Positions 8,682 through 27,655 of a DNA stretch of 64,000 bases are shown here, piece by piece. Under the pieces are notes generated by a model. The model worked only from the letters and a program-made list of their open reading frames with translations. It did no database searches and was not told the origin of the DNA. Position 1 is the first letter of the stretch. Every line of letters starts with the position of its first letter. The translations under genes and the position numbers were made by a program. This DNA comes from Fictibacillus marinisediminis. Lineage in GTDB: Bacteria > Bacillota > Bacilli > Bacillales > Fictibacillaceae. The DNA is taken from the NCBI RefSeq assembly GCF_023149135.1, contig NZ_JAIWJX010000002.1, forward strand, positions 186,001 to 250,000. Direction: 5' to 3'.

Positions 8682-9011
8682 TTAGCAGCAGCCTTTACTG
8701 CAGCCGCTGATGAAGCCATCATGATGACCGCCAAAGCCAATTGAGCAGCCGATGATAATTAATAGGATGAACAGGACGACAACGATAGCAAATCCGCCAC
8801 CGCCATACCCGCAGCCACCGAACCCAGGATAACCGTATCCATAGCCGTAACCGCCACCGCCACCGAATCCACCAACTGCGCCTGGGTAACCGTAGCCACC
8901 ATAACCGCCTCCGAATCCACCAACTGCGCCTGGGTAACCGTAGCCACCAGAACCGCCGCCGTAGCCGTATCCATAACCAAATCCTTGACGCTTATTTCTA
9001 ATTCCAGACAA
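8682..9011 (-). CDS. Glycine/tyrosine-rich protein with YjcZ-type C-terminus, likely sporulation
   Basis: A 109-residue protein. Residues 10-75 are almost only G, Y, F, P, A and V in GYGYPGAVGGFGGG-type repeats. Residues 75-92 form a single hydrophobic helix (FAIVVVLFILLIIIGCS) that matches the tiny YjcZ family of Bacillus sporulation membrane proteins, and the tail is Cys/His-containing (GCSKGCC). TTG 9011 is preceded by AAAGGAG; no ATG is available. A sigma-K-like promoter lies upstream, so mother-cell expression and a spore-surface place are inferred. The glycine-rich extension is much longer than in ordinary YjcZ proteins. Confidence 0.75.
   Translation of the reverse strand: MSGIRNKRQGFGYGYGYGGGSGGYGYPGAVGGFGGGYGGYGYPGAVGGFGGGGGYGYGYGYPGFGGCGYGGGGFAIVVVLFILLIIIGCSIGFGGHHDGFISGCSKGCC
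8863..8958. repeat. Two tandem copies of a 48-bp coding repeat
   Basis: The blocks starting at 8863 and 8911 are nearly identical over 39 bases and encode a 16-residue unit with GYPGAVGGFGGG. This suggests recent duplication in a low-complexity gene. Confidence 0.8.
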
Positions 9012-9057
9012 TGTGTAGATCTCCTTTCTTCCAACAATTTAAAAGTTACTTGCCCTA

Positions 9058-17810: not shown

Positions 17811-18737
17811 ATGAATTCAGTGTTGAAAAAAATTACGGTCATTGCAGCAATCGGTTTGGCAGCCGGGTTGATTGGAACCTACAGCATTTATGCTTCAACC
17901 AGTCATTCTGTTTTCTCTTCCTTTAACAAAAGCAAAGAAACCGTGCTTTATACTGAAAAAACCTTCAGCAGCGATTCACTTAAATCGGTAGAGCTCACCT
18001 CAGATACGGCTGATATTACCGTAAAGATATCTAACGGACCGATAACCAGAGTGGTTCTTGAAGGCCAAAAGGGCGACAAGAAAGACTACAGCATTCAGGC
18101 TGAGCAGAATGGCGGCGTTCTGGATGTGGAGGTTATTGGAAAAAATAAGTTCTTTAACATGGGCTTTCACTGGAGTCCGAAGCTGACGGTGTATGTACCT
18201 GATAAAAAGTATGGCCATTTTAATATTTCAGCTGACACAGGAGATGTAAGTATTAAAGATTTGAAGTCCGATAGGGCAAACATCGAGACGGATACAGGTG
18301 ACATTGAAGCTTCAGGGAAATTTACAGTAAGCAAGCTGAATGCAGAGAGCGATACAGGAGATTTGTCGTTCAATGACTATCGTGGAACATCTATAGATCT
18401 ATCAACTGACACAGGTGATATACAAGCCGGCCGCATTTCAAAGAATGCGAAGGTGATGATCAGGACCTCTACCGGAGATATTCAAGACCTTTCGATGGAA
18501 AGTGCCAGCAAGGATGTTCACATTGAATCGGATACAGGAAATGTTGAAATGCAAATGGATCAGGCTCCATCTGATTTTAAGCTGCGTGCATCCTCTGACA
18601 CTGGCGATGTTGAAGTTTCCCCGGACTGGAAAGTGAACTATGAAGAAAAAAGCGATCACGAGGCTAAAGGAAAAGCGGGTCAGGGAGGATTCAGCGTTAC
18701 TGTAAAAACGGATACGGGAGATATTTACCTAAAGTAA
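17811..18737 (+). CDS. DUF4097 family beta-repeat protein (YvlB-like)
   Basis: This 308-residue protein has an N-terminal membrane anchor or signal segment (residues 7-30) and a repetitive beta domain. The motif (S/T)DTGD or a near variant recurs about eight times at intervals of roughly 20-25 residues (SADTGDVSI, ETDTGDIEA, ESDTGDLSF, STDTGDIQA, RTSTGDIQD, ESDTGNVEM, SDTGDVEVS, KTDTGDIYL), as in DUF4097 proteins, which probably form a beta-solenoid outside the membrane. Third gene of the padR operon; a terminator follows. Confidence 0.85.
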   Translation: MNSVLKKITVIAAIGLAAGLIGTYSIYASTSHSVFSSFNKSKETVLYTEKTFSSDSLKSVELTSDTADITVKISNGPITRVVLEGQKGDKKDYSIQAEQNGGVLDVEVIGKNKFFNMGFHWSPKLTVYVPDKKYGHFNISADTGDVSIKDLKSDRANIETDTGDIEASGKFTVSKLNAESDTGDLSFNDYRGTSIDLSTDTGDIQAGRISKNAKVMIRTSTGDIQDLSMESASKDVHIESDTGNVEMQMDQAPSDFKLRASSDTGDVEVSPDWKVNYEEKSDHEAKGKAGQGGFSVTVKTDTGDIYLK

Positions 18738-23207: not shown

Positions 23208-23415
23208 CAATAAAAGACAGTGGGCTAAAATACCCGAGGTGAAGCTCTTGATCCGATAAAGAAATCTTCGTAATTAGCGAAATACGCGCCAAACTGTATA
23301 CCTGTCAGCCCGGAGCGGGACAGCAATAATTTACGTGACCGCAGAGATATACATACGGTACAATAAAAAGAGAAATGGGTGACTAGTTCACCTGACTAAG
23401 AAAGGTGTGAACATT
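23208..23415 (+). promoter_or_regulatory. Structured leader of the signal peptidase gene, possible riboswitch
   Basis: An extended -10 (TGC-TACAAT ending at 23213) starts a roughly 190-nt untranslated leader. Visible helices are ACAGT near 23218 with ACTGT near 23294, a CTGTC/GACAG arm enclosing CCC/GGG (about 23302-23324), and GGTGA-CTAGT-TCACC (23378-23392). The TTCACC arm can instead pair with the Shine-Dalgarno GGTG (23404-23407), which would be mutually exclusive. I could not match it to a known riboswitch class. Confidence 0.5.
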
Positions 23416-23964
23416 ATGGAGCAAAAAGCTAAAAAAGGGAATGAACTCTTCAGCTGGATCAAGTCCATCGTATTTGCTCTCGTCCTTGTTTATATTATCA
23501 AAACCTTTTTCTTCGCACCATACATGGTAGAAGGAGCATCCATGTCTCCAACCTTGCATAACCATGATAAATTATATGTAAATAAAATTATCTATTCGGT
23601 GTCTGAACCGAAAATAGGGGATATCGTGATTATCAAAGGCACGGACAAACGGTATGTTAAACGTGTAATTGGAGTGGAAGGTGACACTATCCAAGTTCAC
23701 AGTGACAAGCTTTTGGTAAACGGCAAGCCAATAAAAGAACCCTATTTGTCTAAAAACAAAAAGCAGGCGCGAAGCCTCGGTGTTTATTTAACAGAAGACT
23801 TCGGGCCGATTAAAATTCCAAAAGGAAAAATCTTCGTAATGGGTGACAACCGATTGAACAGCATGGATTCAAGAAACGGCCTGGGCCTTATTAACATCAG
23901 CTCAGTTGAAGGCCGCTCCGAAGTGGTCATCTATCCGTTCAAAGACATCCGACAAACAAAGTAA
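23416..23964 (+). CDS. Type I signal peptidase
   Basis: A 182-residue membrane-bound serine protease that cleaves signal peptides. A single N-terminal helix (about residues 14-34) precedes the catalytic block EGASMSPTLHNHDKL (catalytic Ser42), the lysine block RYVKRVIGVEGD (Lys82) and the MGDNRLNSMDSR box. This is the short Gram-positive Sip type (SipS/T/U/V); I cannot tell which. The start is ATG 23416 after AAAGG; GTG 23407 overlaps the ribosome site. A structured leader and possible masking of the ribosome site lie upstream. Confidence 0.92.
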   Translation: MEQKAKKGNELFSWIKSIVFALVLVYIIKTFFFAPYMVEGASMSPTLHNHDKLYVNKIIYSVSEPKIGDIVIIKGTDKRYVKRVIGVEGDTIQVHSDKLLVNGKPIKEPYLSKNKKQARSLGVYLTEDFGPIKIPKGKIFVMGDNRLNSMDSRNGLGLINISSVEGRSEVVIYPFKDIRQTK

Positions 23965-24993: not shown

Positions 24994-25014
24994 AAAAAAG
25001 AGCCTAAGCGGCTC
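24993..25014 (-). terminator. Terminator of the peptide-receptor operon
   Basis: On the minus strand, a GAGCC / GGCTC stem with a five-base loop is followed by seven T. It lies 12 bases beyond the propeptide stop. Confidence 0.75.
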
Positions 25015-25025
25015 AAAATATATAA

Positions 25026-25256
25026 TCAGCAACTGCTAGAACCCAAGTCAGGTAACTCATCAAAAGCTACAAGTTTAGGGCTTGTTTTAGGAAGTTCATC
25101 AAAGGCAGTAAGCTTAAAGGTTTTAGGAAGTTCATCAAAGGCAGTAAGCTTCACGATTGTTTTAGGAAGCTCATCAAATGCGCTGTTTTTAAAAATAGGG
25201 AAAGCTAAAGCCATCATAAATGTTAGGATCAAAAAACCAGTAATAACTCTTTTCAT
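25026..25256 (-). CDS. Secreted signalling propeptide with four AFDELP repeats
   Basis: This 76-residue pre-propeptide has a short Phr-like secretion signal (MKRVITGFLILTFMMALAFP) followed by four copies of an octapeptide: AFDELPKT at residues 26-33, 39-46 and 51-58, and AFDELPDL at 64-71. The repeats are separated by K/T/L/V-rich linkers of 5 residues and end in GSSSC. The start is ATG 25256, eight bases after GGAGG; the ATG at 25271 overlaps the receptor stop and is less likely. It lies immediately downstream of, and is probably co-transcribed with, an HTH-TPR receptor. By analogy to Phr, PapR and NprX, mature AFDELP-type peptides would be re-imported and bind the receptor. Confidence 0.8.
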   Translation of the reverse strand: MKRVITGFLILTFMMALAFPIFKNSAFDELPKTIVKLTAFDELPKTFKLTAFDELPKTSPKLVAFDELPDLGSSSC

Positions 25257-25270
25257 GAAAAATTCCTCCA

Positions 25271-26542
25271 TTAAAATATCTTTTTTCTACTATTATTTGA
25301 TATTCTATAGAACAAACTTGCCTTTTTATATTGGCTTTGATCAAAATATGAATCAGCAAGCAGTTCAGAATAAAGCGAAACATATTCCCACATATTTCTT
25401 TTTTCAAAATGAGGTATAGCTTCTTTACTAACAAATGTTTCAAACTCTGACCAGGTATATTCCGAACCTTCAACTCTATAATTTAATATTTGCAAATGGT
25501 AATAAAAATCACTAGTCGTATTATTACCCAAGTTATCAAAGCTTTTTTTTATCCACTGTCGGGCCTGTTCAAAATCCTGAAGTTCAAAAAATTCTTGAGC
25601 CAGCATATAACTGGTTCCAGCTATACGTTCAGGGTCCCCATCTTTCTCTTTAAAAAAAAGACTTTTTTTAAAAAATTCTACAGCTTTAAGATGTTCTTTT
25701 TTACAAGAAAAAACATAGCCGAGGTTATGATAAATAACACCTGAGGTGAAATTATCATGAAACGATCTAGAATATTTTAAAGCTTGATTAAGGTGATATT
25801 CTGCTTGATCGTAATTTTGAACTCTTCTGTAGCTAATAGCTAGCAATATTTGACAATCCGCACTTCTACTATAATTATATTCTTTATCAAAAATTCCTAT
25901 CGCTTTAAAGGCATAAGAATTGACTGCGCTTATACGCATCAAGTAACCATAGGCAAGAGCGGTTAAATAGTATAATACTGCAACATCACTCTCGTTAATA
26001 TTACTGTTTGTTGTATTGTAAATGTCTTCAGCTTTTTTGAAAAATTGTATTGAAAGTTTATGATTATTTTGATTAATATTAAGGCTGCCCGAAACAATAT
26101 TAAAATAGAATATAAGTTCAGGCGTAAGTTGCTCTTTTAGATTATTAACTTTTAATAAAAGATTGCTGGCTGCATTTATGTTTGGGTTTGCCGTAACAAT
26201 ATAATACCTCGCCAAAAACAACTCATATCTCAAAATAAGCTCAGGCTCATTTACGATTTGCATTTTTTCCTGAACTTTCTCAAAAAAATCATCAGCTTCC
26301 TCAAACCGACGATTCACCATCATCATATTCCACTCATTGAGCAGTTCGAGGATCTCGTTGCTGTCGACTTCCTCGGGCGAAATACCTAAACGTTCACATA
26401 GGAGATTAATGACTTCCTCGCTGGACTTCGCATCCCCTTTCTCAATCTTACTCAAGTAGGAAACAGAACAGATTCCCTGAGCCAGTTCTTCCTGGGTTAG
26501 GCCTTTGGTTTTCCTATAATATCTTATTCTTTGACCGACCAT
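25271..26542 (-). CDS. HTH-TPR transcriptional regulator, RNPP family (NprR/PlcR-like)
   Basis: A 423-residue protein. Residues 1-62 are an XRE-type HTH (RIRYYRKTKGLTQEELAQGI, SYLSKIEKGDAKSSEEV); the rest is a TPR superhelix with repeats such as AEYHLNQALKYS, GVIYHNLGYVFSCKKEHLKAVEFFKKSL and AGTSYMLAQEFFELQDFEQARQW. This layout and length match NprR and related RNPP peptide receptors that bind re-imported oligopeptides. The gene is clearly more AT-rich than its neighbours, suggesting transfer or diversifying selection. GGGGGA precedes ATG 26542. The propeptide gene begins 15 bases past its stop. A perfect inverted repeat lies in the divergent promoter region. Confidence 0.88.
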   Translation of the reverse strand: MVGQRIRYYRKTKGLTQEELAQGICSVSYLSKIEKGDAKSSEEVINLLCERLGISPEEVDSNEILELLNEWNMMMVNRRFEEADDFFEKVQEKMQIVNEPELILRYELFLARYYIVTANPNINAASNLLLKVNNLKEQLTPELIFYFNIVSGSLNINQNNHKLSIQFFKKAEDIYNTTNSNINESDVAVLYYLTALAYGYLMRISAVNSYAFKAIGIFDKEYNYSRSADCQILLAISYRRVQNYDQAEYHLNQALKYSRSFHDNFTSGVIYHNLGYVFSCKKEHLKAVEFFKKSLFFKEKDGDPERIAGTSYMLAQEFFELQDFEQARQWIKKSFDNLGNNTTSDFYYHLQILNYRVEGSEYTWSEFETFVSKEAIPHFEKRNMWEYVSLYSELLADSYFDQSQYKKASLFYRISNNSRKKIF

Positions 26543-26640
26543 AAAATCCCCCTTTCCGAACTTGGGAAAATTGTCATGCTAACCCCCTGCTCATCACGTA
26601 CCAATACTACTACTTTTCCCAATACATACCTACAGAATAG

Positions 26641-26663
26641 TCTGTTAAGATAAATATAACAGA
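26641..26663. promoter_or_regulatory. Candidate operator between the receptor and a divergent gene
   Basis: TCTGTTA-N9-TAACAGA is a perfect 7-bp dyad. It lies about 100 bases upstream of the receptor gene and about 105 bases before the divergent gene. A weak promoter TTGCTA-N17-TAATTT (26677-26705) points toward the divergent gene. Confidence 0.5.
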
Positions 26664-26767: not shown

Positions 26768-27655
26768 ATGGCGAAAATGTATACATTATCAGCACAAGAA
26801 TCGGACATCCAGGAGCTGCTATATGTCTCAAATGATCCAGGTTCAGCCGGAAAGCCTTCAGCCAGCGAACTTGATGACTCTACTCCATATACTGATGTGT
26901 TCATGGATAATAAAAAAAATTACTGGTTTGCCAAAGCCGAGGATACCAAAAACAAACGGCACACCATCTATATCTTTGACCATAAAAATGGCAGGCTCAT
27001 CTCACATAAAGTCAACGGCCGACCGAATTTTTATGAGTTTGATGACAGTGTTGTCATCGCTTGTGAAGGTGATGGGTCTAAAGGCTCGCTTCTTATTTTC
27101 TCAAAGGAACAGCCGAAGCTTATAAAAGAATGGAAAGTGAACGGTTACCTGTGGGAAGTCGAGAAGAATCAAGGAGCCATTTATGTTTCCTGTTATATTG
27201 TAGAGGAAGATCAAGCGGTCCTCTACGTCATTAAAGACAATAAGAAAAAAAGGGTGAACCTGGGAAAGAATATGGCACCTACCGATATCCTTTGCATTAA
27301 GGATGAGGTTTACATTTCAGCGGCTCCCATTCTAAATGGCGATCCCAAGAAAATCATTGTCCTGAACAGTAAAGAGAAAGTGGTAAGAGAATATCCGCTA
27401 AGCATATCACCGAGAACACTCTATCATGTAGAGGATGAGATCATGGTGTATGAATTGGATCTTGCCACAGGGAAAACGGAAAAGATTGTATATGTAAATC
27501 TGAATACAGGTGAACAGTTCACACATGCGATTCCAAATTCGCAAGTGGTGGAATGTACGAGCCGCTCGCTTTCTCTCCTGCAGCAAGACAGCAAAACCTT
27601 GTTTACGTGGGACCATACGAATCGGAAAATCGTTGAAAGCCGAAAGATTTCTTAA
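26768..27655 (+). CDS. Hypothetical protein, beta-propeller-like
   Basis: I do not recognise a named family. The 295-residue product has no signal peptide and shows repeated short beta-strand pairs with aromatic-Asp turns (IYIFDHKNGRLISHKV, GSLLIFSKEQPKLI, ICIKDEVYISAAP-type, EIMVYELDLATGKTEKIVYV), as expected for a cytosolic beta-propeller. The start is ATG 26768, seven bases after GGAGG. It is transcribed divergently from the RNPP receptor across a perfect dyad, so it is a candidate target of the peptide system. A terminator follows. Confidence 0.65.
   Translation: MAKMYTLSAQESDIQELLYVSNDPGSAGKPSASELDDSTPYTDVFMDNKKNYWFAKAEDTKNKRHTIYIFDHKNGRLISHKVNGRPNFYEFDDSVVIACEGDGSKGSLLIFSKEQPKLIKEWKVNGYLWEVEKNQGAIYVSCYIVEEDQAVLYVIKDNKKKRVNLGKNMAPTDILCIKDEVYISAAPILNGDPKKIIVLNSKEKVVREYPLSISPRTLYHVEDEIMVYELDLATGKTEKIVYVNLNTGEQFTHAIPNSQVVECTSRSLSLLQQDSKTLFTWDHTNRKIVESRKIS

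Follow-up and report, generated by a model that had tools for sequence, protein, structure and literature searches.

Genes at the locus

The 64,000-nucleotide (nt) stretch of Fictibacillus marinisediminis DNA analysed here (the window, to whose positions the coordinates refer) carries on its minus strand a quorum-sensing-like pair of genes, encoding a 423-residue receptor with a helix-turn-helix (HTH) domain and a tetratricopeptide-repeat (TPR) sensor, followed by a 76-residue propeptide with four copies of a putative pheromone. Bacteria of the Fictibacillus group live in soil. An earlier note on this DNA had described the two genes in the same way, with three copies of AFDELPKT and one of AFDELPDL, which the open reading frames (ORFs), domains and copy coordinates confirm; its proposal that they form an RNPP-type quorum-sensing pair is supported by the NprR-like character of the receptor and by the adjacent, exported-looking propeptide. 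In our reading, to which we assign a probability of about 0.8, this is a chromosomal NprR-like quorum-sensing system whose peptide-loaded receptor would act at a 61-base-pair (bp) inverted repeat and whose signal specificity would change cassette by cassette. The genes and their parts are as follows.

25271..26542, minus strand: NprR-like HTH-TPR receptor, 423 residues; HTH at about residues 1-58, TPR sensor at about 63-423
25265..25269, minus strand: GGAGG ribosome-binding motif of the propeptide, between the two genes
25026..25256, minus strand: exported-looking multi-pheromone propeptide, 76 residues, four copies, its ATG behind the GGAGG
25158..25181, minus strand: pheromone copy 1, AFDELPKT
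25119..25142, minus strand: pheromone copy 2, AFDELPKT
25083..25106, minus strand: pheromone copy 3, AFDELPKT
25044..25067, minus strand: pheromone copy 4, AFDELPDL
25000..25014, minus strand: terminator-like hairpin 3′ of the propeptide, of a kind of which the scan expects 1.1 by chance

The receptor contains the Pfam domains HTH_3 and TPR_12. The gene order, receptor first, is as noted earlier, the propeptide lying 3′ of the receptor; the overlap claimed for the two genes holds only for a longer, 81-residue reading of the propeptide from an ATG at 25271, as in the 76-residue reading 14 nt lie between the receptor stop codon and the ATG at 25256. A motif resembling a ribosome-binding site follows the receptor stop in 17 loci, as judged by eye. 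The N terminus of the propeptide, also judged by eye and not by SignalP, has basic residues (K/R) near its start and then a hydrophobic stretch. A type I signal peptidase gene (Peptidase_S26; window 23407-23964, plus strand) lies less than 2 kb from the propeptide and might help to process it.

The hexamer AFDELP occurs four times in the propeptide, with linkers of differing sequence between the copies. When the 52-residue mature region was shuffled, none of 20,000 shuffles reached four copies (the maximum was two), which excludes a chance origin of the four. Over the six AFDELP core codons, the six pairs among the four copies differ by 12 synonymous and 0 non-synonymous changes, in agreement with the earlier suggestion that AFDELP is the conserved core. 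Of the 430 ORFs of at least 40 residues in the window, only three contain any hexamer three times or more: the propeptide, a DUF4097 protein and a Gly/Tyr-rich ORF.

Relation to known quorum-sensing systems

NprR is the best sequence match to the receptor in the PDB, with E-values of 3e-16 for a single sequence and 7e-35 for a profile, and also the best Foldseek match. Judged from its sequence, the gene pair is NprR-like and belongs to RRNPPA, the family of cytoplasmic TPR receptors whose ligands are exported linear peptides: it has the family's arrangement of a TPR receptor adjoining a small exported-looking propeptide as well as the N-terminal HTH and Rap-like TPR of the NprR subfamily, the RapH_N match being below the Pfam cut-off (19.2 versus 27 bits). 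We compared 30 receptors of the family, a set that leaves out L054, L060 and the contig-cut L033/L061 and in which L016, near-identical and from the same species, represents the window locus. At the position of the NprR tetramer residue Y223 (PMC4970707), all 30 receptors have Y; at that of F225, all 30 have either Y or F. Among the Rap-like contact columns for Spo0F, D107 is D or E in 25/30, Y118 is Y in 3/30 and Y223 is Y in 30/30; E188 is E in 25 of the 30, one column off.

The resemblance to NprR-NprX of the Bacillus cereus group comprises the HTH-TPR receptor, the propeptide just downstream, the tetramer aromatics and the control of an M4 neutral protease, which is here a prediction. In contrast, identity in the structural alignment is about 24%, the peptide is centred on [DE]xxP instead of being SKPDIVG, and 3-9 copies are usual. 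The different peptide and the low sequence identity set the pair apart from canonical NprR-NprX orthologues, and a query with the NprR TPR at 1e-60 found no match in 11 genomes of the Fictibacillus family.

AimR, the receptor of the AimR-AimP arbitrium system, contacts two inverted half-sites separated by a long spacer of about 25 bp. The present system shares with it the HTH-TPR receptor and the two inverted half-sites, and differs in its spacer of 43 bp, in the predicted activation by the peptide and in its chromosomal location. No receptor match was found in 50,697 phage records at 1e-20, and the only plasmid match was a weak one, with 27% identity at 1e-30; we therefore rejected a phage or plasmid origin of the locus. 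Viral contigs gave three receptor matches of about 40 residues and one exact copy of the inverted repeat, which is probably due to chance, since it lies inside a coding ORF that reads, by eye, like a DNA methylase.

Tandem pheromone copies with conserved cores and variable linkers are also found in Rap-Phr systems of the phages phi3T and phi105 and of the B. subtilis group (PMC11343458, PMC5199041); in the phi3T and phi105 systems the duplicate pheromones are functional (PMC11343458). Rap, however, has no HTH, whereas the window receptor has an HTH_3 domain, so that it does not belong with Rap-Phr; the phi3T and phi105 systems have two copies, and 1-4 and up to eight Phr copies are cited (PMC11343458), compared with up to nine here. 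Multi-copy propeptides, which the earlier note had contrasted with known pairs of mostly one copy per propeptide, are not new, having been described for NprR, Rap, AimR and PlcR: up to six identical copies are described, with repeats in 17/17 atypically long NprR propeptides (PMC9765709), and duplications are reported in nprX genes (PMC5199041). Some of these long NprR propeptides may come from the Fictibacillus clade. The main texts of PMC11343458, PMC9765709, PMC10075063 and PMC12700828 do not mention Fictibacillus. In the open-access papers searched we found no description of this clade, of the 61-bp repeat with its promoter layout, of the regulon or of an exchange of TPR and propeptide under a fixed HTH; nor was an NprR box or the half-site described among the matches listed.

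A 61-bp inverted repeat as the predicted operator

The span considered in the earlier note, which ends at 26663, takes in the receptor leader and with it the following element.

26562..26622, no strand: 61-bp inverted repeat TTGGGAAAA-N43-TTTTCCCAA within the leader of the receptor gene, predicted to be the receptor's operator

The pattern TTGGGAAA(A)-N43-TTTTCCCAA stands between TGTTATATT, the candidate extended -10 of the receptor gene, and the start codon in 33/33 receptor loci, always with a gap of 43 and with one mismatch in L015. When gaps of N25-55 were allowed, this genome yielded three places, all of them N43, and the control none. All 34 family genomes hold 2-8 sites with at most one mismatch, 182 in all by a hand sum of the per-genome counts, compared with 0 for the reversed pattern; subtracting one receptor site per genome leaves about 148 non-receptor sites. 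At two mismatches the reversed pattern gave 0-2 matches per genome (19 genomes), and sites of this quality, including L118 and a seventh site of this genome, were therefore left out of the counts. Exact half-sites at gaps of 13-42 and 44-73 were found in seven places and in five for the reversed control; five of the seven have a gap of 42, one of 44 and one of 58, and one half-site of the last also belongs to a place with gap 42. The centre of the repeat was not part of the search pattern, yet the positions flanking it, 30 and 32, are always A or T in the 61 distinct non-receptor sites; positions 19-21 also lean to A/T.

Searched for in 299 order-level genomes, the exact repeat occurs in 11/11 family members and in 9/288 others, with one hit for the reversed control. 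In six of these nine outside genomes it lies near an NprR-like receptor: about 19 nt upstream in G316, about 80 nt upstream in G206, G231 and G182, about 355 nt upstream in G041, and about 240 nt beyond the end of the receptor gene in G293. A relative of the receptor (1e-30) is present in eight of the nine. We also inspected 22 receptor loci of other families, of which 12 have an upstream repeat matching at least 16/18 positions, with gaps of 41-43 and scores above their own shuffles; eight of the 22 came from genomes chosen because they contain an exact repeat, and of the 14 remaining loci six have such an upstream repeat. We infer that the 61-bp repeat is the operator of an NprR-type activator.

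Four NprR-like receptor loci of other families (L160-L163) have propeptides with 2-6 repeats of a different core, of the AGxAEHPDPTS or AHESHPDPQS type, and are accompanied by the inverted repeat described here, with a gap of 42 or 43. The ORF taken for the propeptide of L164 does not look like one and was not used.

Promoter layout and predicted regulon

Upstream of the receptor gene, the repeat is flanked by two candidate promoter elements and a divergent gene.

26653..26661, minus strand: TGTTATATT, candidate extended -10 of the receptor gene, present in 33/33 loci and not listed by the promoter scan
26643..26651, plus strand: TGTTAAGAT, predicted extended -10 of the divergent gene, 20 nt from the inverted repeat
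26768..27655, plus strand: divergent conserved gene, 295 residues, predicted direct target

The divergent gene is present in 17/17 loci. Its product has no match in Pfam or NCBIfam; the AlphaFold model, with a mean predicted local distance difference test score (pLDDT) of 80.5, is all-beta and propeller-like, a fold described from the model itself and not from a fold search. At 32/33 receptor sites, an extended -10 of the form TGnTAnnAT is found on the divergent side, beginning 19 or 20 nt beyond the half-site. Away from the receptor, 35 of the 61 distinct sites have this element at that distance from a half-site, compared with 0.73 in flank shuffles. The near half-site thus sits in the place of the -35, which suggests an activator and agrees with the reported binding of NprR-NprX over the -35 box of nprA (PMC4147580). 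According to the same 2014 review, the DNA recognition sequence of NprR-NprX was still to be determined; the NprR tetramer is viewed as contacting two DNA sites (PMC4970707). On the receptor side, the stretch from the repeat to the start codon shows no -10; the receptor may therefore repress its own gene from the leader repeat.

To describe the predicted regulon, the ORFs adjacent to the repeats were clustered and Pfam was run on representatives. The 63 rows correspond to 61 distinct sites, two being counted twice because the loci L120 and L135 overlap. The largest clusters are DJ-1/PfpI proteins (13 rows), Rap proteins (13), S8 proteases (9) and M4 proteases (6), followed by PhoX-like (4) and DUF2188 (3) proteins, two clusters with 2 rows each and singletons. 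Another two clusters, with 5 and 3 rows, lie for the most part on the opposite side of rap and DJ-1/PfpI sites. The inverted repeat together with the extended -10 is found in the sequence upstream of M4 neutral protease genes. The sites of this genome with at most one mismatch are as follows.

Site 1: receptor and divergent gene; extended -10 present
Site 2: DJ-1/PfpI gene (L072); extended -10 present
Site 3: M4 protease gene (L073); extended -10 present
Site 4: Rap-Phr pair (L105; Phr-like ORF in L005); extended -10 present
Site 5: 289-residue secreted-looking protein (L103); no extended -10
Site 6: DinB-like gene (L104); no extended -10

The Rap gene at site 4 (L105:351-1442, minus strand) is accompanied by a single-copy, 41-residue Phr-like ORF (L005:1349-1474, minus strand) and preceded by the inverted repeat, with one mismatch, and the extended -10; one quorum-sensing system may therefore control another. 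The M4 neutral-protease gene at site 3 (L073:1-1428, minus strand) is split over two frames in this assembly, by a sequencing error or a real frameshift; in G001, G002, G003 and G005 it reads open as far as those stretches reach.

Pheromone variation and apparent exchange of sensor and signal

The receptor is 100% identical (rounded) to that of Fictibacillus sp. FJAT-27399, and orthologues occur in 7/7 genomes of the genus (1e-60) and in 34/34 of the family (1e-40), one of them cut by a contig end (G016). The earlier note had held that orthologues keeping the receptor and losing the repeats would speak against a pheromone; in general the repeats are kept, 29 of 32 distinct complete receptors being accompanied by propeptides with 3-9 copies (27 of the 30, plus L054 with five copies and L060 with four, both read by eye), and the exceptions are L029, L031 and L015. 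The peptide itself varies between species. Peptides of 30/32 distinct receptors share [DE]xxP, for which we counted at least 16 core forms (DELP, DDLP, DQNP, DDNP, DDSP, EDNP, DHTP, DNSP, DNNP, ENNP, DNGP, DSTP, DENP, DDRP, DDTP and DQTP), so that AFDELPKT is one variant among many and not a fixed signal.

Between copies in the 30 propeptides, the codons of the core tetrapeptide show 525 synonymous versus 25 non-synonymous differences, whereas the linker codons beside the cores show 176 synonymous versus 927 non-synonymous differences; these are pairwise counts and not independent events. Because the core differences are mostly synonymous and those of the linkers mostly non-synonymous, the copies are old enough to have diverged, with their residues held by selection.

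The two halves of the receptor differ in conservation. Among the 30 receptors, mean pairwise protein identity is 91% (minimum 75%) for the HTH (residues 1-58) and 48% (minimum 34%) for the TPR part. At the nucleotide level we compared 22 of the 32 loci in 231 pairs; they are those of genera g1 and g2 other than L031 and L015. F. enclensis (L017) and F. solisalsi (L032) are 95% identical upstream, 99% in the leader, 97% in the HTH and 93% downstream, whereas identity is 63% in the TPR part and 54% in the propeptide. The pairs L023/L049 and L020/L028 show the same pattern; L028/L049, which have a common pheromone, are 89-98% identical in every segment. By a hand count among the best 45 of the 231 pairs, 26 pairs have an upstream identity of at least 85% (85-95%), and their TPR identity is 58-66% in 21 and 81-92% in five. 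In 3/3 divergent pairs scanned, identity drops at about nt 170-260 of the receptor gene and recovers within about 60 nt past the propeptide; the fourth scanned pair, L028/L049, has no such drop. In the window, a break in G+C content (GC) coincides with the HTH/TPR boundary: the AT-richness attributed to the receptor gene holds for its TPR part (31.4% GC) and not for the HTH part (44.4%), which is like the window as a whole (44.7%); the propeptide has 36.4%.

Since near-identical flanks and HTH surround a divergent TPR part and propeptide, closely related species appear to have exchanged the sensor half and the propeptide as one cassette, recombination being the simplest reading. What stayed fixed during the exchange would appear to be the DNA-binding half and its predicted DNA target.

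Proposed mechanism and alternative explanations

Export, cutting, re-import and TPR binding of the signal are established RRNPPA biology. On this basis we infer that the propeptide would be exported and that extracellular proteases would release from it several short and identical peptides with D-E-L-P at their centre, which would be re-imported and bound in the groove of the receptor's TPR half. The loaded receptor, putatively a tetramer, would then act via its HTHs on a pair of half-sites spaced by 52 bp (TTGGGAAAA-N43-TTTTCCCAA) and activate promoters in which the near half-site takes the -35 place and an extended -10 follows after 19-20 nt. We predict as targets the divergent gene, secreted proteases of the M4 and S8 families, Rap phosphatases and DJ-1/PfpI proteins; at the receptor's own gene the leader repeat may repress. 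Signal specificity would evolve by joint replacement of the TPR half and the propeptide, with HTH, operator and targets unchanged. Since the predicted regulon contains secreted proteases, which may free several pheromones from each propeptide, the output could feed back positively on the maturation of the signal; PapR, matured by a protease of the PlcR regulon, is a precedent (PMC4147580).

A more specific form of this mechanism combines three elements: a modular pherotype cassette, in which homologous recombination would place the sensor half and its multi-copy signal together on a near-invariant DNA-binding half, so that the private signal of a lineage changes and the regulon is not rewired; a tetramer on a 61-bp operator that replaces the -35; and the protease loop. 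The operator would span five helical turns, with A/T at its centre and, as a tendency, again roughly one turn outward. We put this combination forward tentatively, at somewhat below even odds. For NprR, the B. cereus group is reported to have seven pherotypes (PMC4147580). For this NprR-like clade, the comparison of genomes offers a candidate operator and a promoter arrangement that are precise enough to be tested, together with a predicted regulon. It also offers a natural panel in which at least 16 pheromone cores are combined with similar DNA-binding domains, and on which the joint change of receptor and pheromone specificity and the reason for the many copies per propeptide become testable.

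Several observations weigh against the proposed system. An AlphaFold tether model, in which the reading frame of the L021 receptor was continued past its stop codon, the TAA being rendered as Q, into the in-frame propeptide of that locus, docked no pheromone copy; the propeptide tail is unstructured (pLDDT about 23-31), so that the model lends no support to docking, and the HTH is also of low confidence in it (pLDDT 53-58). The NprX contacts R126, N306 and D309 of NprR are not conserved (columns placed approximately), which could be expected for another ligand, these contacts being specific to the ligand and not defining the family. The propeptide of L029 has one copy and that of L031 one candidate (IEQTG), and nothing clear is seen in L015. 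Of the 61 distinct sites, 26 have no TGnTAnnAT at 17-24 nt, including L103 and L104 of this genome; these 61, from 14 genomes, are a part of the roughly 148 non-receptor sites, and they include orthologous sites from related species, each counted as a site of its own although they are not independent. A receptor relative is also present in 16/30 searched order genomes without the exact repeat, a frequency that slightly weakens the operator part of the proposal, and of the 22 receptor loci from other families, 10 lack a good match upstream. Finally, as far as the sequences tell, the binder of the repeat could be an HTH-TPR paralogue instead of the receptor.

The last points lead to the most serious alternative, in which the receptor-pheromone pair is real but the 61-bp repeat is the element of a different conserved regulator, under whose control the receptor gene would also stand. 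The genome does hold other HTH-TPR paralogues, the repeat also stands at protease and rap genes, and the relatives without an exact repeat are compatible with such a regulator, binding by the receptor being itself a prediction. Yet the repeat accompanies the receptor in every one of the 33 loci with fixed geometry, and none of the seven listed sites lies at either of the two intact HTH-TPR paralogues of this genome. Outside the family the exact repeat is rare, and where it occurs it is near an NprR-like receptor in six of nine genomes; more than half of the other-family receptor loci have an upstream repeat, even if the share is lower (6/14) among those not preselected for it. We consider this alternative unlikely.

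Less probable still, in our view, is that the multiple copies are a dose amplifier or a by-product of slippage, the peptide differences between species reflecting drift without any exchange of pherotypes. The near-identity of the copies within a gene, their varying number (3-9 where multiple) and the proneness to slippage of repeats of this kind would fit such an origin; against it speak the core codons, which change synonymously and only rarely in the residue (525 to 25), and cassettes of TPR and propeptide that are about 40% different between near-identical flanks, which drift at one locus is not expected to produce. That the repeats are not pheromones but make up a small secreted protein with an antimicrobial or structural role, its gene being co-transcribed with that of a regulator unrelated to it, is highly improbable, for although the tether model docked no peptide copy, RRNPPA pairs are matched by the receptor class, gene order, ribosome-binding site, export-signal-like N terminus and joint swap with the TPR sensor, and the Rap paralogue of the same genome has its single-copy Phr-like ORF in the equivalent position.

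Further observations

A further HTH-TPR paralogue of this genome is interrupted, being split over two frames (L004 and L007; G000:C2:3939032-3939920), and four tandem HTH-TPR paralogues, 30-35% identical to the window receptor, lie at G024:C1:529706-534956 (L062). The two other window ORFs with repeated hexamers are a DUF4097 (toastrack) protein that looks secreted and in which the motif TDTGDI recurs periodically (17811-18734, plus strand) and a low-complexity Gly/Tyr-rich ORF with a hydrophobic stretch and a Cys-rich end (8685-9038, minus strand).

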